Position numbers and translations under genes: made by a program. From positions 1 to 64,000 of the forward strand of contig CADAWR010000002.1 in NCBI GenBank assembly GCA_902791695.1: a stretch of 64,000 nt of DNA. Direction: 5' to 3'. The notes beneath the pieces were generated by a model. It did not search any database and was not told the origin of the DNA. It saw nothing but the letters and a program-made list of their open reading frames with translations. Source of the stretch: an uncultured Bacteroidota bacterium (lineage in GTDB: Bacteria > Bacteroidota > Bacteroidia > Bacteroidales > P3). Positions 4,604-56,513 of the stretch are shown here, piece by piece (positions within the stretch are counted from its first letter, which is position 1; every line of letters begins with the position of its first letter).

Positions 4604-5020
4604 ATGATCAAGAGTCAGAACCAAATTAAGATAGAAACGTCCTCGTCGAGTATGAGCGACTTGGTCTTCCTGTTACTAATATTCTTCATGATTACCTCCA
4701 CCCTCATCAGCCCCAACGCCGTCAAGCTCCTCCTCCCAGAAAGCAACAGCAAGACTATGGCCAAGGAGTCCGTCACCGTCTACATCGACGAGAACCACAA
4801 CTTCTATGTCGAAAACGACATCCCCATTGTCCCTTCCGAGCTCGAGTCCTATCTCCGCACCAGTATCTCCGCTGGCGACACTAGCGCCTGCGTCGTCCTT
4901 CGTGCCGACAAGACAGTCCCCGTCCAGGATGTCGTCCTCGTCATCGATGCCGTCAACAGCATCAACGCCACCACCAACACCAAACACAAAGTCATCCTCG
5001 CCACCTCCCCTAAAAAATAA
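4604..5020 (+). CDS. exbD: ExbD/TolR biopolymer transport protein
   Basis: Partner of ExbB in the TonB motor. The 138-residue chain has one N-terminal membrane segment (MSDLVFLLLIFFMITSTLI), where the aspartate of MSDLVF matches the conserved proton-carrying Asp of ExbD/TolR. A periplasmic domain follows, with LLLPESNSKT and VVLRADKTVPVQDVVLVIDA. Length and topology are normal for the family. It is spaced only 9 bases from the TonB-like gene. Confidence 0.92.
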   Translation: MIKSQNQIKIETSSSSMSDLVFLLLIFFMITSTLISPNAVKLLLPESNSKTMAKESVTVYIDENHNFYVENDIPIVPSELESYLRTSISAGDTSACVVLRADKTVPVQDVVLVIDAVNSINATTNTKHKVILATSPKK

Positions 5021-42957: not shown

Positions 42958-43002
42958 GAACAAAAACCAAACATTCTCTCTATCAAGCCCTCCCCGTCGA
43001 GT

Positions 43003-43020
43003 GTTGCAGTTGTTGCAGTT
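43003..43020. repeat. Half-unit D
   Basis: GTTGCAGTTGTTGCAGTT resembles the left arm of units B and C about 210 bases further on, but a matching right arm is not present. The flanking 43021-43270 has no gene. Confidence 0.6.
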
Positions 43021-43275
43021 CTTAATAGAGCGACAGGACCGCCCATCCGTAATGGCAACGGTGTAACAAGGCCATCCATTCGCCATTTCGACCATCCTTC
43101 AACTATCGTTCGACCATCCTTTAACCATTATATATGGTAAAACTATGGTTAAGTTATTTTAGAAATATGTTTGAAATACCCGATGAATGACGAGTTAACT
43201 ACGACCATAGCATAAAGACACTCTTCTGCGAGGTGAACGACAAATAACAAATGTCCACAAATTTTCATGAATTAT

Positions 43276-43306
43276 TTTGCCGGTTCGTAATTATTTTGTA
43301 CTTTTG
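43276..43306 (+). promoter_or_regulatory. Full Bacteroidota promoter TTTG-N19-TACTTTTG
   Basis: TTTG at 43276-43279 and TACTTTTG at 43299-43306 are separated by exactly 19 bases, the phylum consensus. It would start a transcript near 43312, just before the structured leader. Confidence 0.85.
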
Positions 43307-43344
43307 CAGTCGCAAACGGGGAGAAAAACGTTTGCTATAATAGA

Positions 43345-43507
43345 TAGAAGCGTTATGCTTCCTTGTACTTGAGAACGTCGGAACTTTTCAAGTGGAATTA
43401 TCAAGGTTGTATAATGGCTTCACGCTGATAGCGTGGGCTGTTATTACATTCGATAATTCAGGTTTCCGACGACCTTCAAGTACGATGTGAGACATACAGG
43501 CCCACGC
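43345..43507 (+). ncRNA. Predicted structured RNA element, copy 1 (leader of the accessory gene trio)
   Basis: After a small hairpin (AAGCGTTATGCTT) the RNA folds into an interrupted long stem: GTACTTGA (43365-43372) with TCAAGTAC (43476-43483), GTCGGAA (43377-43383) with TTCCGAC (43464-43470), GAATTATC (43395-43402) with GATAATTC (43452-43459), and an apical CACGC-TGATA-GCGTG hairpin (43421-43435). GCGTGGGC can also pair with GCCCACGC at 43500-43507. A second copy with the same layout and different bases is at 53005-53153. No match to a known RNA class was recognised. Confidence 0.7.
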
Positions 43508-43581
43508 TTCTTTTGTGTACCCGCCATCATGGGCTGGATGGCGAAGTGGTTGCGCCCGACACAAACAAGGGAATTTAAAAT

Positions 43582-43941
43582 ATGAATATAATACTTGCTG
43601 TCACCGCAATTATTCTGTGTACCATTGGTTTGTCATTAGGTAGTGCGGCATCTATTGCAGAAGTCAATCGTCCAAGAACAGGGATTGCATTAATAATATC
43701 AATTGTGGCATTTATTATAGCAATCATCTCCATGGGATTAGCTTGGTATTGGGCAGTAATTATTGCAATTCCTATCGCGATATTTATTCCGATGCTGATT
43801 GCGGCTGCAATAAGCGGAACACATACACAATGGGCTCTTGACAATATGTGTAGATTTGGTTCCCAGGGATATTCTGAGATAAAAATAATGGCTTGGGTAT
43901 TTGCCGGATTGATAATATCTATCATTGCAATAGTGTTATAA
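43582..43941 (+). CDS. Hypothetical four-helix membrane protein
   Basis: A 119-residue protein made almost wholly of hydrophobic segments (IILAVTAIILCTIGLSLG, TGIALIISIVAFIIAIISMG, YWAVIIAIPIAIFIPMLIAA, MAWVFAGLIISIIAIVL). It resembles small DUF4190-like membrane proteins in layout but I cannot name the family. The codons are AT-rich compared with the core genes. Its TAA overlaps the next ATG, so the two are translated together. It is the first gene after the structured leader. Confidence 0.7.
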   Translation: MNIILAVTAIILCTIGLSLGSAASIAEVNRPRTGIALIISIVAFIIAIISMGLAWYWAVIIAIPIAIFIPMLIAAAISGTHTQWALDNMCRFGSQGYSEIKIMAWVFAGLIISIIAIVL

Positions 43942-44507
43942 TGAACTATCACGAAAAAGAAATAGCGCAAAAGGAATCTTTTCTTATGCATATTACTGGC
44001 GATTTCTATGATTTCGTCTCGGATTTTGCAATACCAATAGTTCGCATTGGCACTCCTGTATTCTTTGTATTGCTGGGGCTTACTTTTGTCTGTCATTGGA
44101 GTATCGTCTGCGACTTGTTCTCTATTGCAAGCGGGTTTTCCATTTTGTTTATTGCATACATTATTTCGCTAATATTCATCATTGACAGATTGCTGCTATA
44201 TCGTGTTTTCAAGTCAAAATCTCCCCAATATTCGCTAACTGCAATATGGGGGATTGTTTTGATAGTAGTAGGTATTGCTGCATGCATACTAACGAACAAC
44301 CACAAAAAACAATACAGGTTTGAATGTACCGAATGGTATGTGGACGAACCCAACGGCATTTATCATTGGAACGATAAATGTAAGAGAATGAGTACGTCCA
44401 CCTATACGGCAAAAGGCTACGAGTTTTGCGACAAAGGTTTGGCATTATGTGACTACTGCAAAGAAGAAATGGATGAATATGAGCCAGAGCCTATACGTAA
44501 AACATAA
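43941..44507 (+). CDS. Membrane protein with a C-terminal Cys/His metal-binding motif
   Basis: Three membrane segments lie at about residues 35-60, 65-85 and 98-116. The soluble tail ends YHWNDKCKRMSTSTYTAKG followed by YEFCDKGLALCDYCKEEM. The spacing Y-H-x3-C ... C-x2-C resembles the small zinc-binding module of Ada-like proteins found in many Bacteroidota proteins (YHxxxCxx...PCxxC). No enzymatic domain is present. The start ATG at 43941 overlaps the stop of the previous gene (TAATG). Confidence 0.68.
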   Translation: MNYHEKEIAQKESFLMHITGDFYDFVSDFAIPIVRIGTPVFFVLLGLTFVCHWSIVCDLFSIASGFSILFIAYIISLIFIIDRLLLYRVFKSKSPQYSLTAIWGIVLIVVGIAACILTNNHKKQYRFECTEWYVDEPNGIYHWNDKCKRMSTSTYTAKGYEFCDKGLALCDYCKEEMDEYEPEPIRKT

Positions 44508-44534
44508 TTATTAACATAATTTCATGTTGAAACA

Positions 44535-46292
44535 ATGAGTACTCTTGGCATTATCTTAATTGTATATTTTGTTGTGGCGATTGCCATAATGTCTGTTGTC
44601 ATATACCGTAGGCAACATAATACTCGGCCCTGGGGTGATATGGTAGAGAAGAAACCTCTTTGGAAAATAATCTTACCGCTACCCATATATCCTATTGCCG
44701 GCATATTTTATGTGTTGATACAGGCTTTTGACCCCAAAGAGCGTCGCAAAAGAGAAGCCAAAAAACATCTAAAGACAAAAGATGATTTTGAAAAGGAATA
44801 TGCGGAGCTGAAAGTTGACGAAGTGGATATAGAGGAAGGTCTTGATGACACTTTACAGAAAAATGCGTCTTTATGTATGGCAAATGGTTTGCTCAATAGA
44901 GACCTATTATCTTTCTTTTCCTTGTTGGACGAAAACGTATGTCAAGTATTGTATGACGAAAAACTATTTGATAAAACCACGGGTAAATCTAATGTTGAAC
45001 AATATTGGAGCAATTGGTTAAAGCGACAAGCTGAAAAGGGATTAACCCACAAATACAAGATTGTTAAAGCCAAATATTTTTCAATTGAGGCATTAGAAAT
45101 ATTGTTCTACAATGGAGAAAAGCGTTACTGTGGTGCAATGATTGTGGTGTTCTGGATTAATACTCAAAACAAAATACAGAATATCCTTTTTTCTTCGGAA
45201 CCGGTCCATTATACCCATTTTTTAGAGAATAAACCAAAACTGTTGTCTACTTTGGAATCATTGAGTTCAGATCCTGTGACGTCAGATTTTGAAAGAGGTA
45301 GGCATCTTCCATGCTGCGAATGCGGTACAGATTCTGCTAAGTTGATTTGGTATGGATTTAGAGATATCGCATATGGTGGACAAGTATCATTTTGTCCTAA
45401 ATGCAAAGATATTGTTGAACACTATTGCCATACACACTTTTATGTCGACTATTGGACAGAACATTTTCCAATGGGCGACAATATTGATTACATCGAGAAT
45501 GTATTGAATACAAAAGATATTCTTGATGAGCCAGAAGAACCTGCTGTGTTACGTGCGCCTGGCAGGGTCTTTCTGGAACCAATCAGGGATGTGTTGTCAC
45601 AATGTGATAGAATTGTAGATGGAACAGAAGAGGACCAACTACTATATGCTGCAAATAATGGGGTATATGAAGCATATAATAACCTAGCAATAAAACTGCT
45701 TAGCAAGGATACCGAAAAAGCTATTGAATATTTTAAACTGGCTGCGGATCATGGTGTTGCAAACAGTATGCTAAACCTCTCCCTATGGTACTATTCAGGA
45801 CACGAGATGTCTCAATTCATTAACTATACACATCTGGCCGCAAAGGCTGGAAATATTATTGGATTATATAATGATGCAGTAACATGGCATTCTGCAGTCT
45901 TTGGAGGTGCTCCTCAAATTGATAGAGCCGAGAAACGGTATCGGGAAGCAATAGAAGAGTGTCTGAATCAGATATATGAAGAGGATGAGAATCAGAAACC
46001 AAAAGATGCCTTTTGTGATTATGTTTTGCAATATGCATACTATGGTTTAGGATTATTATACTACCGAGACTTCGGGGAATACAAAAAGTACAATCTTAAT
46101 TTATACTTTGGTAAAGAGGAAGAATTTGCCGTCATGCTAAAGGCTTATGCATATCTTAACGATTGTCCGAAACAAGATAACAAAGTAAGATACTTGAAGG
46201 CGTGTATCTACAAAAAAATACTGGATATACAAAAGGGAGTGGATACTGACGAGAACAAAAAAAAGCAAAACAACGATGACCTGCCGTTTTAA
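44535..46292 (+). CDS. Membrane-anchored protein with zinc-ribbon and Sel1-like repeats
   Basis: 585 residues: one N-terminal membrane helix (LGIILIVYFVVAIAIMSVVI), a basic patch, an unassigned domain (about 90-240), a Cys-rich ribbon near 255-295 (LPCCECGTDSAKLIWYG ... SFCPKCKDIVEHYC), and Sel1/TPR-like helix pairs near 370-440 (AYNNLAIKLLSKDTEKAIEY, FKLAADHGVANSMLNLSLWY). Such repeats bind proteins. The family is not known to me. It is AT-rich like the two genes before it, with 27 bases between them, suggesting one imported operon. Confidence 0.7.
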   Translation: MSTLGIILIVYFVVAIAIMSVVIYRRQHNTRPWGDMVEKKPLWKIILPLPIYPIAGIFYVLIQAFDPKERRKREAKKHLKTKDDFEKEYAELKVDEVDIEEGLDDTLQKNASLCMANGLLNRDLLSFFSLLDENVCQVLYDEKLFDKTTGKSNVEQYWSNWLKRQAEKGLTHKYKIVKAKYFSIEALEILFYNGEKRYCGAMIVVFWINTQNKIQNILFSSEPVHYTHFLENKPKLLSTLESLSSDPVTSDFERGRHLPCCECGTDSAKLIWYGFRDIAYGGQVSFCPKCKDIVEHYCHTHFYVDYWTEHFPMGDNIDYIENVLNTKDILDEPEEPAVLRAPGRVFLEPIRDVLSQCDRIVDGTEEDQLLYAANNGVYEAYNNLAIKLLSKDTEKAIEYFKLAADHGVANSMLNLSLWYYSGHEMSQFINYTHLAAKAGNIIGLYNDAVTWHSAVFGGAPQIDRAEKRYREAIEECLNQIYEEDENQKPKDAFCDYVLQYAYYGLGLLYYRDFGEYKKYNLNLYFGKEEEFAVMLKAYAYLNDCPKQDNKVRYLKACIYKKILDIQKGVDTDENKKKQNNDDLPF

Positions 46293-46458
46293 ATGTTCTC
46301 AAATAAGGAACATATAAGGCATGGGAAATAATTCATGATAATTCGCGGCCATTAACGGTAATTCGCGTTGAAAATAGTATTACGGCAATTCGACTCAGGT
46401 GAGGGCGTTGTCGAAGGGGTTCTATTCTCAAATTTTATTCTATATGTAAAAAAATGTG

Positions 46459-46466
46459 TATATTTG
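46459..46466 (+). promoter_or_regulatory. -7 box (TATATTTG) for the propionate operon
   Basis: TATATTTGCATTT fits TAnnTTTG and lies about 86 bases upstream of the epimerase start; no clean -33 box. The gap 46293-46551 has otherwise only AATTCGCG-type short repeats. Confidence 0.5.
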
Positions 46467-46551
46467 CATTTTAAAACCAAGTCTTGGATATGGGCAAGGT
46501 TTTGATTGTTTGGTAATTGTAAAGAAATATAAATATAAATATAATAAAAAT

Positions 46552-46959
46552 ATGACACCTTCACACATTGAACACATCGGCATCGCCGTGACGAACCTCG
46601 ACGAAGCCATCCGCTATTGGGAGGACGTGATGGGCCTCAAGTGCTACGCCATCGAGGAAGTCAAGGACCAGAAAGTAAAGACGGCCTTCTTCCGCTGCGG
46701 CGACGTTAAGATAGAGCTCCTCGAGCCCACGTGCCCCGAAAGCACCATAGCCGCATTCATTGAGAAGAACGGCGGCAAGGGCGGCATGCACCACATCGCC
46801 TTCGCCATGGAGAACACCGACCAGGCTCTCAACGACGCCAAGGACAAGGGTGTCCGCCTCATCGACCAGCAGAGCCGTCCGGGTGCTGAAGGCTTGAAGA
46901 TTGGCTTCCTGCATCCGAAGAGCACGCTGGGTGTATTAACTGAATTTTGCTGCAAATAA
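46552..46959 (+). CDS. mce: Methylmalonyl-CoA epimerase
   Basis: A 135-residue vicinal-oxygen-chelate protein that interconverts (S)- and (R)-methylmalonyl-CoA. It shows the family start SHIEHIGIAVTNLDEAIRYW, ELLEPTCPESTIAAFIEKNG and MHHIAFAMENTDQALND, where His and Glu residues bind the metal. ATG 46552 follows an A-rich region; an in-frame upstream reading lacks family support. It feeds the next gene, the decarboxylase carboxyltransferase. Confidence 0.93.
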   Translation: MTPSHIEHIGIAVTNLDEAIRYWEDVMGLKCYAIEEVKDQKVKTAFFRCGDVKIELLEPTCPESTIAAFIEKNGGKGGMHHIAFAMENTDQALNDAKDKGVRLIDQQSRPGAEGLKIGFLHPKSTLGVLTEFCCK

Positions 46960-46975
46960 ATAAAACACAATAATT

Positions 46976-48535
46976 ATGGCTTTTGAACAGAAGATAAAGG
47001 AGCTGCTTGACAAGCGTGGTGAAGCCCGCATGGGTGGAGGCCAGAAAGGCATTGACAAGCAGCACGAACAGGGCAAACTGACCGCCCGTGAGCGTATCGC
47101 CCTCCTGCTCGACGAGGGTTCTTTTGAGGAATTCGACATGTTTGTCACTCATCGCTGCACCAACTTCGACATGCAGAAGAAGTCGTACCTCGGCGACGGC
47201 GTGGTGACGGGCTACGGCACCATCAACGGCCGCATGGTGTATGTCTTCGCACAGGACTTCACCGTCCTCGGTGGTTCGCTCAGCGAGACCATGGCTCTCA
47301 AGATCTGCAAGGTTATGGATCAGGCCATGAAAGTCGGCGCCCCCGTCATCGGCATCAACGACTCAGGCGGAGCACGTATCCAGGAAGGTATCAACGCTCT
47401 GGCCGGCTATGCCGAAATCTTCGAGCGCAATATTCTGGCCAGCGGTGTGGTGCCGCAGATCAGCGCCATCTTCGGCCCCTGCGCCGGTGGCTCGGTCTAC
47501 AGCCCGGCCCTGACCGACTTCATCCTCATGAGTAAGGAGAACAGCTATATGTTCCTCACAGGCCCGAAGGTGGTGAAGACCGTCACGGGCGAGGACGTCA
47601 CCGTCGACAAGCTCGGCGGCGCCATGGTGCACGCCAGCAAGAGCGGTGTGGCCCATTTCGTCGGTGAGACCGAGGAGAGCACCCTGCAGCTCATCCGCGA
47701 GCTGGTGGGTTACATCCCCAGCAACAACTTCGAGGAGGCCCCGATGGTTGCCACCGGCGACCCCATAGACCGCTTGGAGGACAGCCTCAACACCATCATC
47801 CCCGAGAACCCCAACGAGGCCTACGATGTCAAGGATGTCATCCATGCTATCGTCGACGACGGCAAGTTCCTCGAGGTGCATGAGAACTTCGCCAAGAACC
47901 TCGTCGTCGGTTTCGCCCACATGGGTGGCGTGAGCGTCGGCGTGGTTGCCAACCAGCCCAAAGCTATGGCCGGTGTGCTCGACTGCAACGCCAGCCGCAA
48001 GGGCGCCCGCTTCGTGCGCTTCTGCGACGCCTTCAATATCCCGCTGGTGACCCTAGTCGACGTGCCCGGCTTCCTGCCCGGTACCGGCCAGGAATACAAC
48101 GGCGTCATCAACCACGGTGCCAAGATGCTCTTCGCCTATGGCGAGGCCACGGTGCCCAAGGTGACCGTCACCCTGCGTAAGAGCTACGGCGGTGCCCACA
48201 TCGTCATGAGCTGCAAGCAGCTGCGTTCGGACATCAACTACGCATGGCCCACGGCCCAGATTGCCGTCATGGGAGCCAGCGGTGCCACCGAGGTGTTGCA
48301 TGGCCGCGCTCTCAAGGAGATCACCGACCCCGAGGAGAAAGCCAAGTTCATCGCCGAGAAAGAAAAGGAGTACAACGACCTCTTCGCCAACCCCTACAAT
48401 GCCGCCAAATACGGCTACATCGACGATGTCATAGAGCCGCGTAACACCCGCTTCCGCGTCATCCGTGCCCTCCAGGCCCTGCAGACCAAGAAGGACTCGC
48501 TGCCCATGAAGAAGCACTGTAACTTACCCTTGTAA
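46976..48535 (+). CDS. mmdA: Methylmalonyl-CoA decarboxylase carboxyltransferase subunit (propionyl-CoA carboxylase beta-like)
   Basis: 519 residues of the acyl-CoA carboxyltransferase family. Motifs: [60 protein letters not shown] near 125, and [20 protein letters not shown] near 365. It moves the carboxyl group from methylmalonyl-CoA to biotin on the carrier protein, producing propionyl-CoA; the membrane subunit then uses it to export sodium. The neighbours support this over a propionyl-CoA carboxylase role. Confidence 0.93.
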
Positions 48536-48583
48536 ACAATTCATTCAAATCAATAATTTTATTAACCAAAAAACATCAAAACA

Positions 48584-48922
48584 ATGAAGAAAGTTCTGTT
48601 TACCGCTATGGCCGCCGTCGCTATGTTCGCTATGGTTGCCTGCAACAACAACAAGGCCGCCGAGGCTACCGAGGACACCTGCGCCATCGAGCAGACCGAG
48701 CAGACCTGCGACATGACCTGCGCCGACACCTGCATGTGCGGTGAGGAGTGCGCCGCCGCCAAGTGCGAAGGCTGCCCCAACCACGGCACCGAGAACTGCT
48801 GCAAGGCTAAAGCCGCTGTCGAAGGCCAGGCCTGCGAGCAGACTTGCGAGCACAAATGCCAGAAAGCCGAAGGCCAGGAGTGCCAGAAAGCTTGCGAGAA
48901 AAAGTGCGAGAAAGCCCAGTAA
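48584..48922 (+). CDS. Cys-rich small lipoprotein
   Basis: Signal peptide MKKVLFTAMAAVAMFAMVAC with lipobox, then 92 residues with about 18 cysteines in spaced pairs or triplets (CDMTCADTCMCGEECAAAKC, CEQTCEHKCQKAEGQECQKA). The pattern suggests metal binding or heavy disulfide bonding. It is odd to find it inside the methylmalonyl-CoA decarboxylase operon, between mmdA and the OadG-like gene. Codon usage resembles the neighbours, so a recent arrival is not evident. Confidence 0.78.
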   Translation: MKKVLFTAMAAVAMFAMVACNNNKAAEATEDTCAIEQTEQTCDMTCADTCMCGEECAAAKCEGCPNHGTENCCKAKAAVEGQACEQTCEHKCQKAEGQECQKACEKKCEKAQ

Positions 48923-48930
48923 TCATTCGA

Positions 48931-48960
48931 GTGCGGCGGCACTGCCGCCGCACTTGTTGA
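48931..48960 (+). terminator. Strong GC hairpin after the Cys-rich gene
   Basis: GTGCGGCGGC / GCCGCCGCAC (48931-48953) with a three-base loop is followed by a T-rich tail ending TTCTTTTTT. It could weaken transcription into the rest of the operon or stabilise the upstream mRNA. Confidence 0.6.
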
Positions 48961-49000
48961 TACTTCTTTTTTGATGTTTGAGTAAAATGTATTAAAAAGA

Positions 49001-49978
49001 ATGAATACAATTTATAAAATAACCCTGGCAGTTCTCTTCAGCATCTCGCTGATGACGGCCACAGCGCAGCCGCCCATGCATGAAGGCGCCTGTGCCGGTG
49101 GTCCTGCAGCCGAGGAGCAGCCCCACGAGGGTTGCATGATGCACGGCATGATGCCCACGGTGGACTTCCAGAGCGTGAAGATATGCTTCGCCCCCCAGAT
49201 GGGCGCTTTTGTCGCTGTCGACAGCGTGGAGTGCTCGGTGCACCTTGTCGCAATGACCGAGAATGGTCTTGACACCATCAGCAGCTACAAGACTGACAAT
49301 ACCCACAAGCGTCACGACCTTAAGAACATCCTGCGCCCCGTGAGCGTCGGCTTCCTCGGCAAGTATGTTGTTGTGCTGGCTTCGGCCGTCAACGACAGCG
49401 CCTATGTGGCCCTGCTTGACGAGAACATGAACGTGGTGGCCCGTCGCGACTTCCGCAGCCCCATGTATGCCTTCCATCTCGAGCACGGTTTCATGTTCGT
49501 CGTCGGACGCAACCCCTACGGATACGACATCAATATCCTGCCCCTCCACGGTGGTCTTGACAACTTCTCCAACGGCGAGATCATGACCCACCACTACCGT
49601 GTTGCAAAGCAGTCGGAGAAGATCAAGCAGAGCGACCCCATCGGCATCGGCCTTGCTGCTGTCGCCGTCGCCGTGGTGTTCCTGGCTCTGGTGTGCATCT
49701 TCCTGCTCATCAGCGGCACCGGCAAGCTCCTGGCTGGCATGGACGACAAGAAGAAAGCTCCCAAGGCTGGCAAAGGCATCAAGCCCGTCTCCGAGGGCAG
49801 CTCGGCCGCTAATGACCAGGAGGTCTTCGCCGCCATCGCCGCCGCCATCCACCTCTACAACGACGAACTCCACGACGAGGAGGACGCCGTCATCACCATC
49901 CAGAAGGTGGAGCGCGAATGGACACCGTGGAACGCCAAGTTCTATAATATGAATCAATACTTTAACAACAGAAGATAG
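49001..49978 (+). CDS. OadG-family (decarboxylase gamma) protein with a large periplasmic domain
   Basis: Residues 1-24 are a signal peptide (ITLAVLFSISLMTATAQ), followed by about 190 residues outside the membrane (including HEGACAGGPAAEEQPHEGCM). A membrane helix lies near 215-245 (GIGLAAVAVAVVFLALVCIF) and then an alanine-rich charged cytoplasmic tail with the OadG pattern (AAIAAAIHLYNDELHDEEDA). Usual OadG subunits are about 80-100 residues. The gamma subunit holds the decarboxylase complex together at the membrane. The role of the extra domain is unknown. Confidence 0.8.
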   Translation: MNTIYKITLAVLFSISLMTATAQPPMHEGACAGGPAAEEQPHEGCMMHGMMPTVDFQSVKICFAPQMGAFVAVDSVECSVHLVAMTENGLDTISSYKTDNTHKRHDLKNILRPVSVGFLGKYVVVLASAVNDSAYVALLDENMNVVARRDFRSPMYAFHLEHGFMFVVGRNPYGYDINILPLHGGLDNFSNGEIMTHHYRVAKQSEKIKQSDPIGIGLAAVAVAVVFLALVCIFLLISGTGKLLAGMDDKKKAPKAGKGIKPVSEGSSAANDQEVFAAIAAAIHLYNDELHDEEDAVITIQKVEREWTPWNAKFYNMNQYFNNRR

Positions 49979-49980
49979 TC

Positions 49981-50415
49981 ATGAAAAACTACAAACTCAA
50001 GATAAACGGCAACGAATACAACGTTGACATCAACGAAGTCGAGGGCCAGGAAATAAAGCTCAACGTCAACGGCACCGACTATGTGGTCACTGTCGACCAG
50101 GAGATCAAGCAGCAGAAGAAAGCCGTCGTGCGTCCCGCCACTCCGGCAGCCCAGGTGGCTCCCGCCAACGGTGGTGTGCAGAAGGGCAACGCCCCCGCCG
50201 CAGGCAGCAAGGTGACCACGCCGCTTCCCGGCACCATCCTCGACGTGTTCGTCAATGTTGGCGACAGCGTCAAGCAGGGTCAGACCGTCGTGCTCCTCGA
50301 GGCCATGAAGATGGAGAACAACATCGAGGCCGACGTCGCCGGCACCGTCAAGGAAGTCAAAGTCCGCAAGGGCGACAGCGTCCTCGAAGGCGATGTACTC
50401 GTAGTAATCGGATAG
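49981..50415 (+). CDS. mmdC: Biotin carrier subunit of methylmalonyl-CoA decarboxylase
   Basis: A 144-residue biotinyl-domain protein. The C-terminal half has the biotin attachment site EAMKMENNIEADVAGT (Lys near residue 110) with the preceding TPLPGTILDVFVNVGDSVKQ. An N-terminal part (LKINGNEYNVDI) and a Pro/Ala linker match the gamma-decarboxylase carriers. It swings carboxybiotin from the carboxyltransferase to the membrane subunit. Confidence 0.92.
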   Translation: MKNYKLKINGNEYNVDINEVEGQEIKLNVNGTDYVVTVDQEIKQQKKAVVRPATPAAQVAPANGGVQKGNAPAAGSKVTTPLPGTILDVFVNVGDSVKQGQTVVLLEAMKMENNIEADVAGTVKEVKVRKGDSVLEGDVLVVIG

Positions 50416-50468
50416 TTTTGAATTAACGTTTTAACGTTATAGCGTAATAACGAATAAAACAATAAGAA

Positions 50469-51638
50469 ATGATTAGTTTAGCAACAGGTGGCTTCATGGA
50501 GTTCATGTCGACCCAGCTGGTACAGTTCCTCGAATATACCGGCTTTGCCAACGTGACCTGGGGCCATATAGCAATGATTGTTATTGGCTTGGTGTTCATC
50601 TTCCTGGGCATCAAGTATGAGTTCGAGCCGCTGCTCCTTGTCCCCATCGGATTTGGTATGCTCATCGGCAACATTCCCTTCTATCCGGGACTCAAGATTG
50701 GTATCTATGAACAAGGCTCCGTGCTCAACATCCTTTACCACGGTGTGCAGAACGGCTGGTATCCGCCGCTAATCTTCCTGGGCATAGGAGCAATGACCGA
50801 CTTCTCGGCGTTGCTCTCCAACCCCAAGCTGATGCTCATCGGTGCTGCTGCCCAAGTCGGTATCTTCGCCGCCTATATGGGTGCTCTGGCCCTCGGTTTC
50901 ATGCCCAATGAGGCCGGTGCTATCGGTATCATCGGTGGTGCCGACGGTCCAACGGCTATCTTCATCTCCTCGCAGCTGGCTCCCGACCTGATGGGTGCCA
51001 TAGCCGTGTCGGCCTATAGCTACATGGCTCTCGTGCCCGTCATACAGCCTCCCATCATGCGACTGATGACCACTCCAAAGGAGCGCACCATCCGCATGAA
51101 GCCGCCGCGTCAGGTCTCCAAGCTGGAGAAGATCACTTTCCCCATCATCGGTCTTCTGTTCTGCGCCTTCATCGTGCCGAGCGGCCTGCCACTGCTGGGT
51201 ATGCTCTTCTTCGGCAACCTCCTCAAGGAGTGCGGTGTCACCAAACGCCTGAGCGATGTAGCCTCCAATGCCGTTGTCAACATCTGCACCTTGCTCATCG
51301 GCATCACCGTCGGCGCCTCCACCCAGGCCTCGGTGTTCCTCAGCGGTAAGTCGGTGATGATCTTCGGCCTCGGTGCCGGCAGCTTCATCGTGGCCACCTT
51401 CTGTGGTGTCCTCTTCGTGAAGATCATGAACCTCTTCCTCAAGGAAGGCAACAAGATCAATCCCCTTATTGGCAACTCCGGCGTCAGCGCTGTGCCCGAC
51501 GCCGCCCGCGTGTCGAACAATGTGGGTCTGGAGTACGACAAGACCAACTACCTGCTGCAGCACGCCATGGGCCCCAACGTGGCCGGTGTCGTAGGCTCGG
51601 CAGTGGCCGCCGGTATCCTGCTGGCCTTCCTCCACTAA
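50469..51638 (+). CDS. mmdB: Sodium-translocating decarboxylase beta subunit (OadB/MmdB family)
   Basis: A 389-residue membrane protein with about ten predicted helices. Family signatures: GIGAMTDFSALLSNPKLMLI near 100, GIIGGADGPTAIFISSQLAP near 155 (substrate and sodium pocket), and NSGVSAVPDAARVSNNVGLE near 335. It decarboxylates carboxybiotin and drives sodium out, storing energy during propionate production. Confidence 0.95.
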   Translation: MISLATGGFMEFMSTQLVQFLEYTGFANVTWGHIAMIVIGLVFIFLGIKYEFEPLLLVPIGFGMLIGNIPFYPGLKIGIYEQGSVLNILYHGVQNGWYPPLIFLGIGAMTDFSALLSNPKLMLIGAAAQVGIFAAYMGALALGFMPNEAGAIGIIGGADGPTAIFISSQLAPDLMGAIAVSAYSYMALVPVIQPPIMRLMTTPKERTIRMKPPRQVSKLEKITFPIIGLLFCAFIVPSGLPLLGMLFFGNLLKECGVTKRLSDVASNAVVNICTLLIGITVGASTQASVFLSGKSVMIFGLGAGSFIVATFCGVLFVKIMNLFLKEGNKINPLIGNSGVSAVPDAARVSNNVGLEYDKTNYLLQHAMGPNVAGVVGSAVAAGILLAFLH

Positions 51639-51668
51639 ATAGGGAAGACTATACAACACCAACAAATA

Positions 51669-51701
51669 GAGGATGCTCCCCGCGAGCGTCCTCTTTTTTT
51701 T
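51669..51701 (+). terminator. Terminator after the methylmalonyl-CoA decarboxylase operon
   Basis: GAGGATGCTC / GAGCGTCCTC (one G-T pair) with a CCCGC loop and a T8 run; it closes the operon 30 bases after mmdB. Confidence 0.88.
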
Positions 51702-51708
51702 ACATACC

Positions 51709-51755
51709 GCGCTAAAGAATATTTTGCCAAACAAGAAAAGATATGTATCCTTGCA
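51709..51755 (+). promoter_or_regulatory. Promoter repeat 1, upstream of the DUF1016 nuclease
   Basis: A Bacteroidota promoter with TTTG (51723-51726), exact 19-base spacer and TATCCTTG (51746-51753). The 47-base segment is repeated with 5 differences at 52838-52884, just after the nuclease gene. Confidence 0.85.
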
Positions 51756-51781
51756 AATAAAAATCAGATAACAATTACCTG

Positions 51782-52837
51782 ATGGCAGACAGCATGACCA
51801 TACAGAATAACAAAATTATGCCGTTGGTTGACGACCTGCGGCAGATAATCAACCAGACGCGCAACCGTGTCGCCGTCAATGTCAATGCTGAACTCACCTT
51901 GATGTATTGGCATATCGGCAAGCGTATCAATCGTGAAGTACTTGGAAATGAGCGCGCTGAATATGGAAAACGAATTGTTGCGACAGTGTCGCAACAATTA
52001 CAATCGGAATATGGTGACAAAGGATTTGAGAAAAGTTCCATCACAAGAATGATGAAGTTCGCACGGCTATTCCCAAATTATCAAATTGTTGCGACACTGT
52101 CGCGACAATTACAATGGTCTCATTTTGTAGAGGTTATTCCCTTAAAGAACGACCTTCAACGGGAATTCTACCTAACGTTGGCTGTTTCCGAAAGATGGTC
52201 TATTCGGCAGCTGCGCAAGGAGATTGACGGCATGTTGTATGAGCGCACCGCCATTGCGACGAAGCCTGACGAGCTGATCAAGCAGGAGCTGACGGAATTG
52301 CGGGACAACAACGTCCTCACACCCGACTTGGTCTTCAAGAGCCCTTATTTCTTGGAGTTCACAGGGCTGAAGGGAATGTACAGCGAGAAGAGCCTCGAGG
52401 ACAGCTTGGTGGCGCATCTGGAGCAGTTCATATTGGAGTTGGGTAATGGATTCACCTTTGTCGAGCGGCAGAAGCGGATGATAATCGACGGCGAGGACTT
52501 CTACCTCGACCTGCTTTTCTACCATCGCAGGTTGCACCGATTGATAGCCATTGATTTGAAACTCGGCAAATTCAAGGCGCAGTACAAAGGCCAGATGGAG
52601 TTGTATCTGCGATGGCTCGAAGCCCACGAGATGGAGGCTGGCGAGGAGCAGCCCCTCGGTCTGTTGCTCTGTACCGAAGGCGGCGACGAACAGATAGAGC
52701 TCCTGCAACTCGACAAATCCGGTATCAAAGTAGCGCAGTACATGACCGAGCTGCCCTCCAAAGAACTGCTGCAACGCCAGCTGCACAAAGGTCTGGAGGC
52801 CGCCCGCCAGCGCTGGGAGAATTGCCAAGAGGACTAA
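51782..52837 (+). CDS. DUF1016 / YhcG-like PD-(D/E)xK nuclease
   Basis: A 351-residue protein in two parts: the DUF1016 N-terminal helical domain (LVDDLRQIINQTRNRVAVNV, FEKSSITRMMKFARLFPNYQ) and the PDDEXK nuclease domain with GEDFYLDLLFYHRRLHRLIA and IDLKLGKFKAQYKGQMELYL near 240-275, whose Asp and Lys residues fit the catalytic core. Such proteins occur often beside restriction-modification genes in defence islands; I infer a defence role. The gene is enclosed by two nearly identical promoters. Confidence 0.9.
   Translation: MADSMTIQNNKIMPLVDDLRQIINQTRNRVAVNVNAELTLMYWHIGKRINREVLGNERAEYGKRIVATVSQQLQSEYGDKGFEKSSITRMMKFARLFPNYQIVATLSRQLQWSHFVEVIPLKNDLQREFYLTLAVSERWSIRQLRKEIDGMLYERTAIATKPDELIKQELTELRDNNVLTPDLVFKSPYFLEFTGLKGMYSEKSLEDSLVAHLEQFILELGNGFTFVERQKRMIIDGEDFYLDLLFYHRRLHRLIAIDLKLGKFKAQYKGQMELYLRWLEAHEMEAGEEQPLGLLLCTEGGDEQIELLQLDKSGIKVAQYMTELPSKELLQRQLHKGLEAARQRWENCQED
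51973..51999. repeat. 27-base near-palindrome in the nuclease gene, copy 1
   Basis: AATTGTTGCGACA and TGTCGCAACAATT form perfect 13-base arms around one G. A second copy with one mismatch lies at 52084-52110. Confidence 0.85.
52084..52110. repeat. 27-base near-palindrome in the nuclease gene, copy 2
   Basis: AATTGTTGCGACA C TGTCGCGACAATT, one mismatch from perfect, encoding VATLSRQL where copy 1 encodes VATVSQQL. Confidence 0.8.
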
Positions 52838-52884
52838 GCGCCAAAGATTATTTTGCCAAATAAGAAAAGATTTGTATCTTTGCA
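52838..52884 (+). promoter_or_regulatory. Promoter repeat 2, upstream of the RNA element and helicase
   Basis: TTTG (52852-52855), 19 bases, TATCTTTG (52875-52882). It begins immediately after the nuclease stop and matches repeat 1 at 42 of 47 positions. Confidence 0.85.
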
Positions 52885-53004
52885 GTCGAAATAACATAAA
52901 AGAATGCGTTAATGTGTAAATGCGTTAATGCGTTAGTTTTAATAAATGAACAACTAAAACAGAATAGAAACAGAGAAATAAAATAATAGAATAAATACAT
53001 AAAT

Positions 53005-53153
53005 TAGAAGCGTTTTTGCTTTTCAAGTGAATGGAAATCTGGACAATTTCTAATCCCAACGAGAAGGCAAGAAACGCTCACGGTGTTATCCGTGGGCTTT
53101 CTCGTTTTGGGATATAGGCAGTCCAGAGCCTCCATTCAGACAGAAGTTCACGG
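53005..53153 (+). ncRNA. Predicted structured RNA element, copy 2 (helicase leader)
   Basis: The same order as copy 1: TAGAAGCGTTTTTGCTT hairpin, then GAATGGA (53029-53035) with TCCATTC (53131-53137), CTGGAC (53039-53044) with GTCCAG (53121-53126), ATCCCAACGAGAA (53053-53065) with TTCTCGTTTTGGGAT (53099-53113), apical CACGG-TGTTAT-CCGTG (53079-53094), and a downstream CACGG (53149-53153). The stem bases differ from copy 1 while pairing is kept. With the promoter this fills the 52838-53199 gap. Confidence 0.7.
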
Positions 53154-53199
53154 ATTTTTCATTGTTCTGAAAGGCGAAGCGCCAATAACGCCAAGCCTT

Positions 53200-56100
53200 A
53201 TGAGCACCAAGTTTTTCAACAATATCGAGTCGACGCTGATGGACAAGTTCCACGGCATCGCCTCTGCAATGGCCAACTTCGACATATTCCATGCTGTAGT
53301 TGGCTATTTTCGTTCTTCGGGATATTTCAAACTGCGACAGGAATTGGATGCCACACAGGAAATCAAGATTCTTGTCGGCATCAATATCGACAATCTCTTC
53401 CGTCAGTCGCAAGCGGCTGGTAAGCTCTTCTTTGGAGACAAAGAGATGAGTCTGGAACAATACTGTGAGGATTTCCTTCGTGATGTCTATCAATCCGAAT
53501 ACTCATCCGAGGTGGATGAGGGCATCCGCCAGTTCTGTGAAGATGTTTCGAGTGGTCGCCTGCAACTGCGCATCCACCCCACCAAAGACCTGCATGCCAA
53601 GTTCTACCTCTGCCTGCCCAAGAACCACAGCGAACACAGCGACGGCTGGGTCATCATGGGTAGCAGCAACCTTAGCGCCCAAGGACTTGGCACCACCGAG
53701 CCGCCTCGCTACGAGCTCAATGTGGCCATGAAGGACTATGACGATGTGCAATATTGCGAGGAGCAGTTCCAGCAACTTTGGGATGATGCCATTCCGGTGA
53801 CATTGGACGATGTGAACCATATCGTCGGGAAGACCCATCTTGCGCCAGAAGAACATCAGCCCACTCCATACGAGCTATACATGCGTATGCTCATCGACCA
53901 CTTCGGCAATCAGGTCGAGGATGATTTCATTCCTCAACTGCCCGACAACTACGACAACCTTACCTACCAGCGTGACGCTGTGGTGCAAGGCTATGACATT
54001 ATGATGCAGCACGGCGGCTGCTTTATCGCCGATGTGGTGGGATTGGGCAAAACCGTGGTGGCCGCTATGATTGCGCAGCGCTTCATCGCCGCCAATGGCG
54101 ACAACACCCGCATCCTTGTCATCTTCCCACCAGCTGTTAAAAGCAACTGGGAAGACACTTTTGCTGACTTCCATATCAAAAACAAATTCAGTCACTTTAT
54201 CACCAATGGCAGTTTGGATAAAGTGATTGAGGGATCTGACAACTTCAGTCAACCAGGCTATTACGACCTTATCATTGTCGATGAGGCCCATAACTTCCGG
54301 CACGACAGCAACGACAACTATGACCTTCTGCAACGTATCTGCAAGTCGGCCCGCCTCAACAAGGGCAATGTCAAGGGTGCAAGCGCGTCCTCCTGCTCTC
54401 GGCCACACCGCTCAACAATACGCCCGAGGACATCAAGAACCAGCTGCTGCTGTTCCAGGATACCGCCCGCTGCACCCTCGACGGTGTGGGTAACATCGCC
54501 GACACTTTCGCCCCTTGGATTAAGGCGTTCAAGAGCCTCATGTCGCAACGTCGCGTCCTGAGTGCCGATTACCTTACCAGTCATATAGACGACATCAACC
54601 AGCAGATGCGCCACATTGTGTTGGAGAAGGTGATGGTGCGTCGCACCCGCAGCAATATCCAGCACGAACCCCGTTATGCCGGCGAGATTCATTTCCCGCA
54701 GTTGCTCGACCCCACCGACCGCACTTATCAGATGTCGCCCGAGGTGTTGATGCTTTTTGTGGACACCTACAAGAAATTGGTGGACACTCCCACCGCCAAC
54801 TTGAAAGAAGACAATCCCGATATGTTCGACGGCAGCGGCTTGCGCTATGCCCGATATAGAGCCATAGAATATTGCCCGTCTTACAAGATTACGTCTGGCA
54901 AAACAGCGAAACACATGGCCGACTCGCTGGCCGGAATCTACCAAACCCACATGGTCAAACGTCTGGAGAGCAGCTTCGACGCCTTTAGAAAATCGCTCCA
55001 TACGCTCCTCGATGCCACCAACGGTATGATTAAGATGTTCAAAGAGGACAAGGTGATCATCGCCCCCGAACTGAATGTAAAGAAACTGCAAGCCGACGGC
55101 ATGGAGTTGGACGAGATAATCGAGCTGGCCATCGGCAAGGGCTTTGAACAGAACGAGATTGTGTTCCGTGCTGCCGACTTCAAGCCCGACTTCTTGCCGA
55201 TGCTGGAATACGATGCCGAAGTGTTGGACAAACTCTGCAAACGGTGGGACAAGGTGAAATCCGACCCCAAGTTGGACCTCTTTGTCAGAATGCTGGAGGA
55301 TGAGCTCTTTGACAAGAGCAAGAACCTCGAAGGCAAGCTGGTGGTGTTCAGCGAGAGTGTTGATACCGTCAACTATCTGGAGAAAGAACTGAAAGAACGT
55401 CTGCATCGCAACGATATCCTTGCCGTCTGTGCCAAGAATCGCAACCGTCTGCGTGAGACCATTCAGGCGAACTTCGATGCCAAATACAAGAAGGAATGGC
55501 GTAACGACTATAACATCATCATCACCTCCGACGTGCTGGCCGAAGGTGTCAACCTGCACCGCGCCAATGTCATTGTCAACTACGACAGTCCTTGGAATGC
55601 CACCCGTCTGATGCAGCGCATTGGTCGTGTGAACCGTATCGGCTCCACCGCCGACGCCATCTACAACTATATGTTCTATCCCTCCGACCCGGGCGATGCC
55701 ATCATCAGCCTGAAGAAGAACTCGCTCATCAAGTTGCAGAGTTTCCATTCCGCCCTCGGCGAGGACACCAGAATCTACTCGCACGAGGAGATGGTACACG
55801 AATTCAAGCTCTTCAACGCCGACGTGCGCGACGAGACCGACCGCAACTTCGAGTTAATCCGCGATGTGCGCCACCTCCACGATACCAATCCCACACTCTA
55901 CCGCAAAATAAAACAGTTACCACCCAAGAGCAGATGCTGCAGAATTGAAAATTCAAAATTGAAAATTGAAAATTCAACAGTAACGTATCTTTCTTCTGAC
56001 TTTAAGAAGGCTTTCTATCTTGTCGGAGAATCCATCCGCGAACTTTCCTTCCTCGAGGCTGCGGACATATTCTATGCTGAGCCCGACGAGAAGGCCGTGC

Positions 56101-56513
56101 CTTTCGGCGACAGCGAGTCCCTACACTATGAGCAAGTGCAGACGTCTTTGAAGCAATATACCCTCGACCAGCAGCGCGAGCATCAAGACGACAAGCCCAA
56201 GATTGGCAGCAAAGACAACGACGCCAAGAAGGCCGCCGCCTTCCTGCGCGAGGTGCGCCCTCTGCTTGACGATGAAGGCCGCCACACCGTCGACCAACTG
56301 AAGCATCTGGTGGAACGCGGCACCTACAACCAGTTGGCCGACGCACTTATCCGCATGTCAAAGAAACAAAAGAAAGAGCCAGCTCCCATCATCAAGATCT
56401 TGGAACAGCTCGAAGATTTGGACAGCCGTTATGGACAGCCGCAAACCGAGACGACTACCAAACAGGTTGCACTCACCACAGCAGATATCATCCTTTCTGA
56501 AACATTCAAATAA
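53200..56513 (+). pseudogene. PLD-like nuclease plus SNF2-type helicase, frameshifted
   Basis: Start ATG 53200 (MSTKFFNNIESTLMDKFHGI). Residues about 1-170 are a phospholipase-D-like domain (LHAKFYLCLPKNHSEHSDGW ... GSSN near 130). The helicase core has FIADVVGLGKTVVAAMIAQR near residue 275 (Walker A), DEAHNF near 362, and, after a break at about 54378, LLLSATPLNNTPEDI and later RIGRVNRIGSTADAIYNYM. One base (probably C in GGTGCCAAG) seems missing at 54378-54380, so the two halves lie in different frames. A longer in-frame start at 53083 would read through the structured RNA. The helicase is paired with a DNA methyltransferase. It contains an AATTGAAA-type repeat (55943-55978) in the C-terminal part. 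Confidence 0.85.
55943..55978. repeat. AATTGAAA/AATTCAAA simple repeat inside the helicase gene
   Basis: Tandem AATTGAAA and AATTCAAA-like words, encoding RIENSKLKIENS in frame. Such words are typical of intergenic DNA in Bacteroidota. Confidence 0.8.

Follow-up and report, generated by a model that had tools for sequence, protein, structure and literature searches.

Two stretches of a 64,000-nucleotide (nt) window, comprising positions 1 to 64,000 of contig CADAWR010000002.1 (assembly GCA_902791695.1) from an uncultured bacterium of the order Bacteroidales, are copies of a very common structured RNA of gut and environmental Bacteroidota. The RNA probably represents a family of cis-acting 5' leaders that act as three-strand attenuators—we put the probability of this at roughly 0.7—in which one strand, strand 2, can pair with either of two partners, strand 1 or strand 3. 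Judged from sequence, the best reading of the leader is a transcription attenuator or riboswitch-like device. A first-pass annotation of the window had noticed both copies, each between a promoter and a gene, and had proposed a leader RNA that switches between two folds. Both are present where it placed them (the cmsearch boundaries are in the table below), and a leader with two alternative folds is supported by many homologs and strong covariation, with no match in Rfam.

Each copy folds stably (z −5.88 for copy 1, −5.33 for copy 2; 0 of 200 dinucleotide shuffles as stable in either case). Aligned directly with each other the two are uninformative, and their kinship therefore had to be asked. 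Copy 1 belongs to sequence type A and copy 2 to sequence type B. Alignment A5, of 66 diverse type A cores, served as seed for a covariance model, R1; in that seed the host genome is represented by copy 1 and a third copy only. R1 recovers copy 2, which is not in its seed, at 45.5 bits (E 1.5e-9, window search), and the window copies are therefore homologous. Copy 1, being nearly palindromic, is also matched on its reverse strand (19.7 bits, E 0.003), an echo that was to be expected. Searched at the DNA level, the host genome yielded the third copy, 72% identical to copy 1, behind a gene read as secA by eye, and a weak relative of copy 2 (E 0.05) whose element is on the reverse strand of locus L005. 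The further homologs that the first-pass annotation had called for are plentiful: in the host genome alone, R1 matches 12 times at E<1e-4 and once more at 0.02.

Beyond the host, BLAST at E≤0.001 finds matches to the third copy in 72, and to copy 2 in 84, of 120 genomes of the genus. Among the 75 that are at least 85% complete, R1 and R2, the latter a type B model of 24 sequences with copy 2 included, each match 65 at E≤1e-8, and 70 have at least one leader of either kind. R1 matches 107 of 295 genomes of the order at E≤1e-5 and, the host's own counted, 34 of 394 genomes of the phylum at E≤1e-3; copies per genome in these many-genome scans are lower bounds, since only 7 to 39 candidates were scored per genome. 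The phylum search supplied a third sequence type, C, consisting of the 28 loci that remain when the host's own and L199 are set aside; 27 come from outside the order and one, L214, from inside. An exact degenerate pattern occurs in at least 120 stretches of a collection of 84,980 species. The 80 titles listed for these are all Bacteroidales taxa, except three named only Bacteroidia, and the matches listed include Bacteroides, Prevotella, Parabacteroides, Alistipes, Butyricimonas, Muribaculaceae, Rikenellaceae and others. Among the carriers are named cultured species such as Bacteroides gallinarum, Parabacteroides faecis and Butyricimonas synergistica, and the leader is therefore directly testable.

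Comparative evidence shows that the RNA can form two folds. In the first, long-range fold, a helix termed P2 encloses a junction. Within it stand two hairpins with mutually complementary loops (X' in H1, X in H2) and a central arm ending in the pairing of strands 1 and 2 (1:2). The conserved complementary loops had been overlooked by the earlier reading of the window. Across the 66 sequences of A5, 91.2% of the cells of this fold are paired, and its covariation score is 0.377 against 0.190 ± 0.006 for shuffled and at most 0.092 for slid controls. All eight pairs of P2 show two-sided changes, and the helix is 86.2% paired, its outermost pair being mostly unpaired; X'/X has 99.4% standard pairs, with two-sided changes at five of its eight; and one pair of helix P5 is G-U in 62 of the 66. 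When 97 type A sequences are scanned for covariation without supervision, X'/X and P2 pairs rank at the top, and the tail is seen to covary with the hairpin that follows it on the 3' side (columns 159–193, z 10.5; columns 158–194, z 4.9). Because X' lies in the loop of H1 and X in that of H2, a kissing interaction between them inside a four-way junction is possible; H1, H2 and X'/X all covary, which is compatible with kissing loops or with a plain long stem. The minimum-energy fold of the whole core contains 1:2 in 109 of 110 type A, 29 of 29 type B and 20 of 26 type C sequences, and 2:3, the pairing of strands 2 and 3, in 1, 0 and 5.

The first-pass annotation had placed a small hairpin, AAGCGTTATGCTT, at the 5' end. 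This is plausible as a local hairpin in type B, but in type A pairing of the 5' end with the 3' tail (AAGCGU/ACGCUU, helix P1) explains the letters better: five of its six pairs are standard in all 66 sequences and the sixth in 65. GCTT is read at the small-hairpin site in only 33 of the 66; the other 33 cannot close the outer pair, and for this reason P1 replaces the hairpin in type A. The concerted variation that the annotation saw between the apical strand and its downstream copy is real, and recurs in all three sequence types.

In the second, two-halves fold, H1 stands alone on the 5' side and strand 2 pairs with strand 3 on the 3' side, with H2 as inner hairpin and, in many members, U's behind; the two folds compete over the same bases. 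The H1 stem covaries (0.415, against 0.235 ± 0.017 shuffled and at most 0.224 slid). It shares bases with the inner pairs of P2 and so excludes them, yet both helices covary. When the 5' half is folded alone, X' falls in the loop of a hairpin in 109 of 112 type A, 24 of 30 type B and 25 of 28 type C sequences, against 45 of 117 shuffled ones; the 3' half, likewise alone, forms 2:3 in every sequence (110/110, 29/29 and 26/26). Strands 2 and 3 of the same RNA pair at lower energy than permuted partners: of 2000 permutations per type, none did as well in A, B or C (n = 95, 23 and 24, with 6, 1 and 3 more unparsed). Mean energies for own, cross and shuffled-tail pairings are −18.6, −17.9 and −8.7 kcal/mol in type A, −16.8, −15.9 and −5.9 in type B, and −19.3, −17.1 and −8.5 in type C; the gain of own over cross is small because the strands vary little. 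The closing bases of H2, the third of its GGY and the first of its RCC, are Watson-Crick in 138 of 143 sequences of the three types, where 97.7 would be expected were they independent (18 type A and one type C unparsed). This covariation is put down to H2 being the hairpin that the 2:3 stem encloses. A column test of 2:3 plus H2 gave 0.230 against 0.164 ± 0.015 shuffled; it covers type B alone, the 3' halves of types A and C being misaligned or misanchored, and for these the anchor-based H2 count stands instead.

T's follow the tail. Of the 12 positions behind it, a mean of 7.5 (type A, n = 112), 8.5 (B, 29) and 8.0 (C, 28) are T, against 3.1, 2.2 and 3.8 further on. Runs of at least five T's occur in 26 of 29 type B and 17 of 28 type C members, and a run of at least four lies within 14 nt in all 29 parsed type B tails. 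The sequences therefore contain what one looks for in an attenuator: two mutually exclusive helices, one of them followed by a U-tract that is good in types B and C and weak in many of type A. Two mutually exclusive folds with a terminator-like end are, to this extent, supported by the alignments, and the accord of three diverged types seems to us a stronger argument than any single test.

Several observations weigh against an attenuator, and a main one is the weakness of the type A U-tracts: at least five consecutive T's lie within 14 nt of the tail in only 23 of 112. In the H1 test, 70 of 500 shuffles reach as many pairs with two-sided changes; 2:3 is nearly invariant inside type A; and in the type B column test further pair types number 8 against 8.7 when shuffled, with one pair broken in 7 of 15. 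Relatedness among the sequences is not corrected for in any of the fold tests, whether by permutation or by shuffling, and RNA folding programs disregard pseudoknots. An antisense open reading frame (ORF) is the longer one in 6 of 40 loci sampled from R1 matches and 5 of 59 sampled from R2 matches. Finally, the genes downstream of type A leaders share no function, which is unusual for a metabolite sensor. Because of the weak type A U-tracts, termination may not be the universal output. The folds might instead hide and expose the region of the start codon, with a pseudoknot between tail and 3' hairpin near the AUG doing the work; we consider such a translational switch a respectable possibility, if a good deal less probable than attenuation. 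It would suit the weak U-tracts, the fairly steady spacing of the start codon and the covariation, in columns 158–194 and 159–193, of the type A tail with the loop of the last hairpin before the AUG. It fits less well with types B and C, where good U-tracts stand right behind strand 3, and with type B in particular, where no pseudoknot of this kind was seen by eye.

If the leader is an attenuator, it might work as follows. In the ON state the long-range fold would let RNA polymerase through; in the OFF state strand 3 would displace strand 1 from strand 2, creating a terminator-like hairpin that stops transcription before the gene. The trigger could be a common cellular signal—a metabolite, ion, protein or RNA—acting on the core of junction and paired loops. 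Given the diversity of the type A genes, this signal would be general rather than pathway-specific, and, being independent of the gene that follows, the leader has come to serve very different genes. Two further partners are open to the type A tail, the 5' end (in P1) and the loop of the hairpin nearest the start codon, and translation may therefore be controlled too. The direction of control, the signal and the main output, termination as opposed to translation, are what we infer from sequence.

That the element is most likely a 5' leader follows from its position, between an upstream promoter box and a nearby co-directional ORF. Promoters of the form TTTG-N19-TAnnTTTG had been reported before both copies, and their letters are indeed there. 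In 91 of 101 type A elements a TAnnTTTG box stands in the 120 nt before the element; a reversed-sequence control has it in 5 of the 93 with enough upstream sequence. In 51 of the 91 boxed loci it starts 48–55 nt before the core. On the other side, a co-directional ORF longer than any antisense one follows in 34 of 40 sampled R1 loci and 54 of 59 sampled R2 loci (one more R2 locus was too short), starting at a median of 58 nt and 48 nt, respectively, after the core. A promoter at a steady distance, and an ORF on the same strand just behind, are what a cis-regulatory 5' leader should have. Cores are some 150–165 nt long, and from the expected start of transcription to the AUG the leader spans about 270 nt in copy 1 and 310 nt in copy 2. 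With its own promoter and terminator-like end, the element could also be the source of a trans-acting small RNA (sRNA) of roughly 200 nt, released because transcription usually stops after strand 3, and paralogous sRNA families do occur in Bacteroides (FopS, in Rfam). We think this unlikely: most sampled loci have the co-directional ORF some 50–60 nt downstream, and reuse before unrelated genes points to a role in cis.

Most type A cores have an AUG at positions 9–11, inside helix P1b. Of 99 loci with it, 90 reach a stop in its frame within 10 codons, against 59 and 34 for the other two frames, although the search pattern itself demanded the AUG in most. The AUG reads AUA in L016, L018, L028 and L030, and type B lacks it. 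The short frame often reads MLIL or similar, which is partly an effect of the search pattern.

What lies behind the leader differs between the types. Type A precedes unrelated, mostly uncharacterised genes: among 100 of their proteins 47 Pfam families are represented, each in three members at most, and 40 sampled proteins match no PADLOC model. Among 58 sampled type B proteins, in contrast, PLDc_2 is matched by 6, MmeI_Mtase by 6 and N6_Mtase by 4, and many match PADLOC models of restriction-modification (R-M) systems; R-M or PLD motifs, from a crude set, are found in the next ORF of 23 of 59 sampled type B loci and 0 of 40 type A. The first-pass suggestion that the leader may control defence-type genes holds in part: type B often precedes R-M genes, by motif count, Pfam and PADLOC alike, and type A precedes diverse genes. 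Type B might be a device of its own for timing restriction and modification, keeping the nuclease low, for instance, until the host is methylated. The excess of motifs and PADLOC matches over type A suggests as much, but the motif is missing in 36 of the 59 loci and the core and switch of type B are the same as those of type A; we rate this interpretation as improbable. Type C precedes SusC-like receptors at L209, L212, L216, L220 and L221, whose ORFs begin 381–468 nt downstream, counted from where the core starts (the two scanned, L216 and L221, match the TonB plug domain), and at L223 an ECF-sigma-like gene, by eye. On the Bacteroides uniformis plasmid pBUN1 (L244), about 50 nt separate the end of the leader from blaMUN-1, annotated as a beta-lactamase gene.

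The leader seems to be shared between genes as a unit. In 144 pairs of loci whose cores have 88% identity or more over at least 90%, the downstream proteins are similar in 54 and dissimilar in 90, the latter an upper figure because some pairs are longest-ORF artefacts (L045 versus L046–L048, for example). Some cores that precede unrelated genes are 100% identical, such as L020/L021 and L036/L111, which makes the leader a modular part; by eye, the outer hairpins around identical cores differ, yet stay paired. At the copy 1 locus, the related genome G091 is 92% identical in the upstream region as far as the promoter (43311) and then, with another gene immediately behind that promoter, has other genes until 46441; in G068 the points 41807 and 46525 are a mere 287 bp apart.

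Such modularity raises the alternative, entertained by the first-pass annotation, of a mobile or recombining DNA hairpin that carries a promoter by chance. The identical cores before unrelated genes would fit, as would members on plasmids and in 10 viral contigs. As the primary function, this is disfavoured by the steady distance to the promoter, the conserved G-U pairs and the steady spacing of the start codon. The G-U of P5 suits RNA better than DNA, flanking hairpins vary with pairing kept (by eye), strand and gene spacing are steady, and neither terminal repeats nor target duplications were seen by eye in the groups of near-identical cores compared, nor any precise empty site at the loci inspected, though no systematic search was made. 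We regard a mobile hairpin as very improbable. A phage element was considered separately and rejected: the strict type A pattern, which finds exact matches only, occurs in 10 stretches of viral contigs, and distant BLAST returned 2 phage records with a type A query and none with copy 2.

Returning to the attenuator, we can imagine, with rather less than even confidence, that a single ancestral leader—portable, bistable, phylum-wide and responsive to one general signal—has been copied before dozens of unrelated accessory genes, making of them one RNA-controlled regulon. If true, this regulon takes in restriction systems, lipoproteins, SusC-like receptors and even a plasmid beta-lactamase.

Table 1. 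Parts of the two leader copies in the window and the genes behind them
Feature	Position	Strand	Remarks
Copy 1 promoter	43276..43306	+	TTTG 43276–43279, 19 nt, TACTTTTG 43299–43306; letters checked
Copy 1 5' hairpin GCAAACG/CGTTTGC	43312..43335	+	Directly after expected transcription start
Copy 1 RNA core, type A	43347..43509	+	cmsearch boundaries; R1 134.7 bits (copy 1 in seed)
Copy 1 P2, 5' strand GTACTTGA	43365..43372	+	Partner TCAAGTAC 43476–43483
Copy 1 X' CGTCGGAA	43376..43383	+	Loop of local hairpin H1; complementary to X
Copy 1 strand 1 CACGC	43421..43425	+	1:2 hairpin in minimum-energy fold of type A
Copy 1 strand 2 GCGTGGGCTG	43431..43440	+	Partner is strand 1 or strand 3
Copy 1 H2	43461..43474	+	GGT 43461–43463, X TTCCGACG 43464–43471, ACC 43472–43474
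Copy 1 strand 3 tail ACAGGCCCACGC and T-rich stretch	43496..43515	+	Strand 2:3 energy test; T enrichment
Copy 1 3' hairpin GCCATC/GATGGC	43523..43542	+	Loop GGGC 43531–43534 can pair with tail GCCC 43500–43503
First gene after copy 1	43582..43941	+	119 aa; no Pfam match
Copy 2 promoter	52852..52882	+	TTTG 52852–52855, 19 nt, TATCTTTG 52875–52882
Copy 2 RNA core, type B	53007..53157	+	cmsearch boundaries; R2 178.3 bits (copy 2 in R2 seed)
Copy 2 P2, 5' strand TGAATGGA	53028..53035	+	Partner TCCATTCA 53131–53138; alignment A4 pairs 27–148 to 35–140
Copy 2 X' TCTGGAC	53038..53044	+	Pairs with X 53121–53127; A4 pairs 38–136 to 44–130 kept in 25/25
Copy 2 strand 1 CTCACGG	53077..53083	+	Alignment A4; fold counts
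Copy 2 strand 2 CCGTGGGCTTTC	53090..53101	+	Strand 2:3 tests; type B column test
Copy 2 H2: GGC, A, X GTCCAGA, GCC	53117..53130	+	Type B closing pair 13 C-G and 13 T-A of 26
Copy 2 strand 3 GAAGTTCACGG and T run	53143..53159	+	Type B T-run counts
PLD/SNF2-type helicase gene after copy 2	53200..56513	+	Two overlapping frames, 53200–54561 and 54486–56513
Eco57I-like type IIG restriction-methyltransferase	56522..59485	+	987 aa

Some details of these loci deserve mention in their own right. Relatives have hairpins of different letters, by eye, at the place of the copy 1 5' hairpin. Between the 3' hairpin and the start codon of copy 1, at 43549–43571, lies a motif GTTGYRCCCGACAC...AGGG, perhaps another small hairpin, which is common to many Prevotella-type leaders (L014, L016, L018, L030–L034, L036). 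A roughly 300-bp intergenic sequence that ends at the copy 1 promoter (about 43001–43311) recurs elsewhere in relatives, with 90–92% identity at two places in G091, and the part of it around 43079–43152 recurs many times in several genomes. Of the two helicase frames behind copy 2, the first encodes the N-terminal PLD and ATPase part and the second the C-terminal helicase part; the N-terminus recurs at the start of several relatives. A KFLGIPVDG-like protein family recurs behind type A leaders (L067, L071, L087, L092, L123, L139, L308, L309, L345), and its first member, at L067, has no Pfam match. Leaders on plasmids of Bacteroides and Parabacteroides (L244, which is pBUN1, L247, L246 and L245) precede blaMUN-1, a DUF4433 gene, a DUF6088/AbiEii-type pair and hypothetical genes.

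The RNA family is apparently undescribed, as the first-pass annotation had supposed. Rfam 15, with 4227 models, has no match over any member tested, and on these grounds a known RNA class is rejected for them: the whole window gives 0 matches at gathering scores, and permissive settings find nothing over the element in copy 1, copy 2 or the third, secA-side copy, in 12 type C loci from outside the order, or in 8 Bacteroidales loci. The window contains no tRNA or tmRNA. In the type A locus of Bacteroides muris (L091), the FopS sRNA (Rfam RF04319) is matched at 4662–4728, a stretch distinct from the leader. A search of the open-access literature, with closed papers, preprints and supplements outside its scope, found no description of the element, nor is there one in the parts covered of PMC9723704, PMC7366714, PMC2864571 and PMC8040213. 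The last of these (Fremin and Bhatt 2021) reports thousands of structured-RNA candidates from human microbiomes, 508 of them directly upstream of genes; it treats the same sort of bacteria by the same sort of approach as here and, in the parts covered, names no such element, although a fragment of the leader may be listed in its supplementary tables. The Bacteroidetes motifs Flavo-1, Bacteroidales-1 and Bacteroid-trp, in the covered parts of Weinberg et al. 2010 (PMC2864571), are likewise structured RNAs of the phylum in which the leader occurs. Whichever of that paper's motifs are entered in Rfam ought to be among the models searched, and the members tested match none; the comparison extends to motifs so entered, and not to others such as Bacteroides-2 and GUCCY-hairpin.

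The leader seems to be among the commoner structured leader RNAs of Bacteroidota, and with about a dozen copies in the host genome there is still no matching family in Rfam 15. Should the switch prove real, a sizeable share of the accessory genome of these bacteria, restriction systems and plasmid cargo included, would be under one RNA mechanism. The leader is also an unusual instance of a regulatory RNA that different genes share as a module. Two known kinds of system invite comparison. Classical transcription attenuators, the leaders of amino-acid operons, exchange 1:2 for 2:3 strand pairings; like them, the leader lies between promoter and gene and has a strand that can take either of two partners but not both, with U's behind the second. 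Unlike them, it has no universally conserved leader peptide, serves no single pathway, and has a large junction with complementary loops. Purine and cobalamin riboswitches are classes with kissing loops or junctions. From these the leader differs in that the members tested match nothing in Rfam and the type A genes are functionally unrelated; with them it shares a closing helix, a junction, complementary hairpin loops and a downstream expression platform, and its core, by this analogy, may be called aptamer-like.

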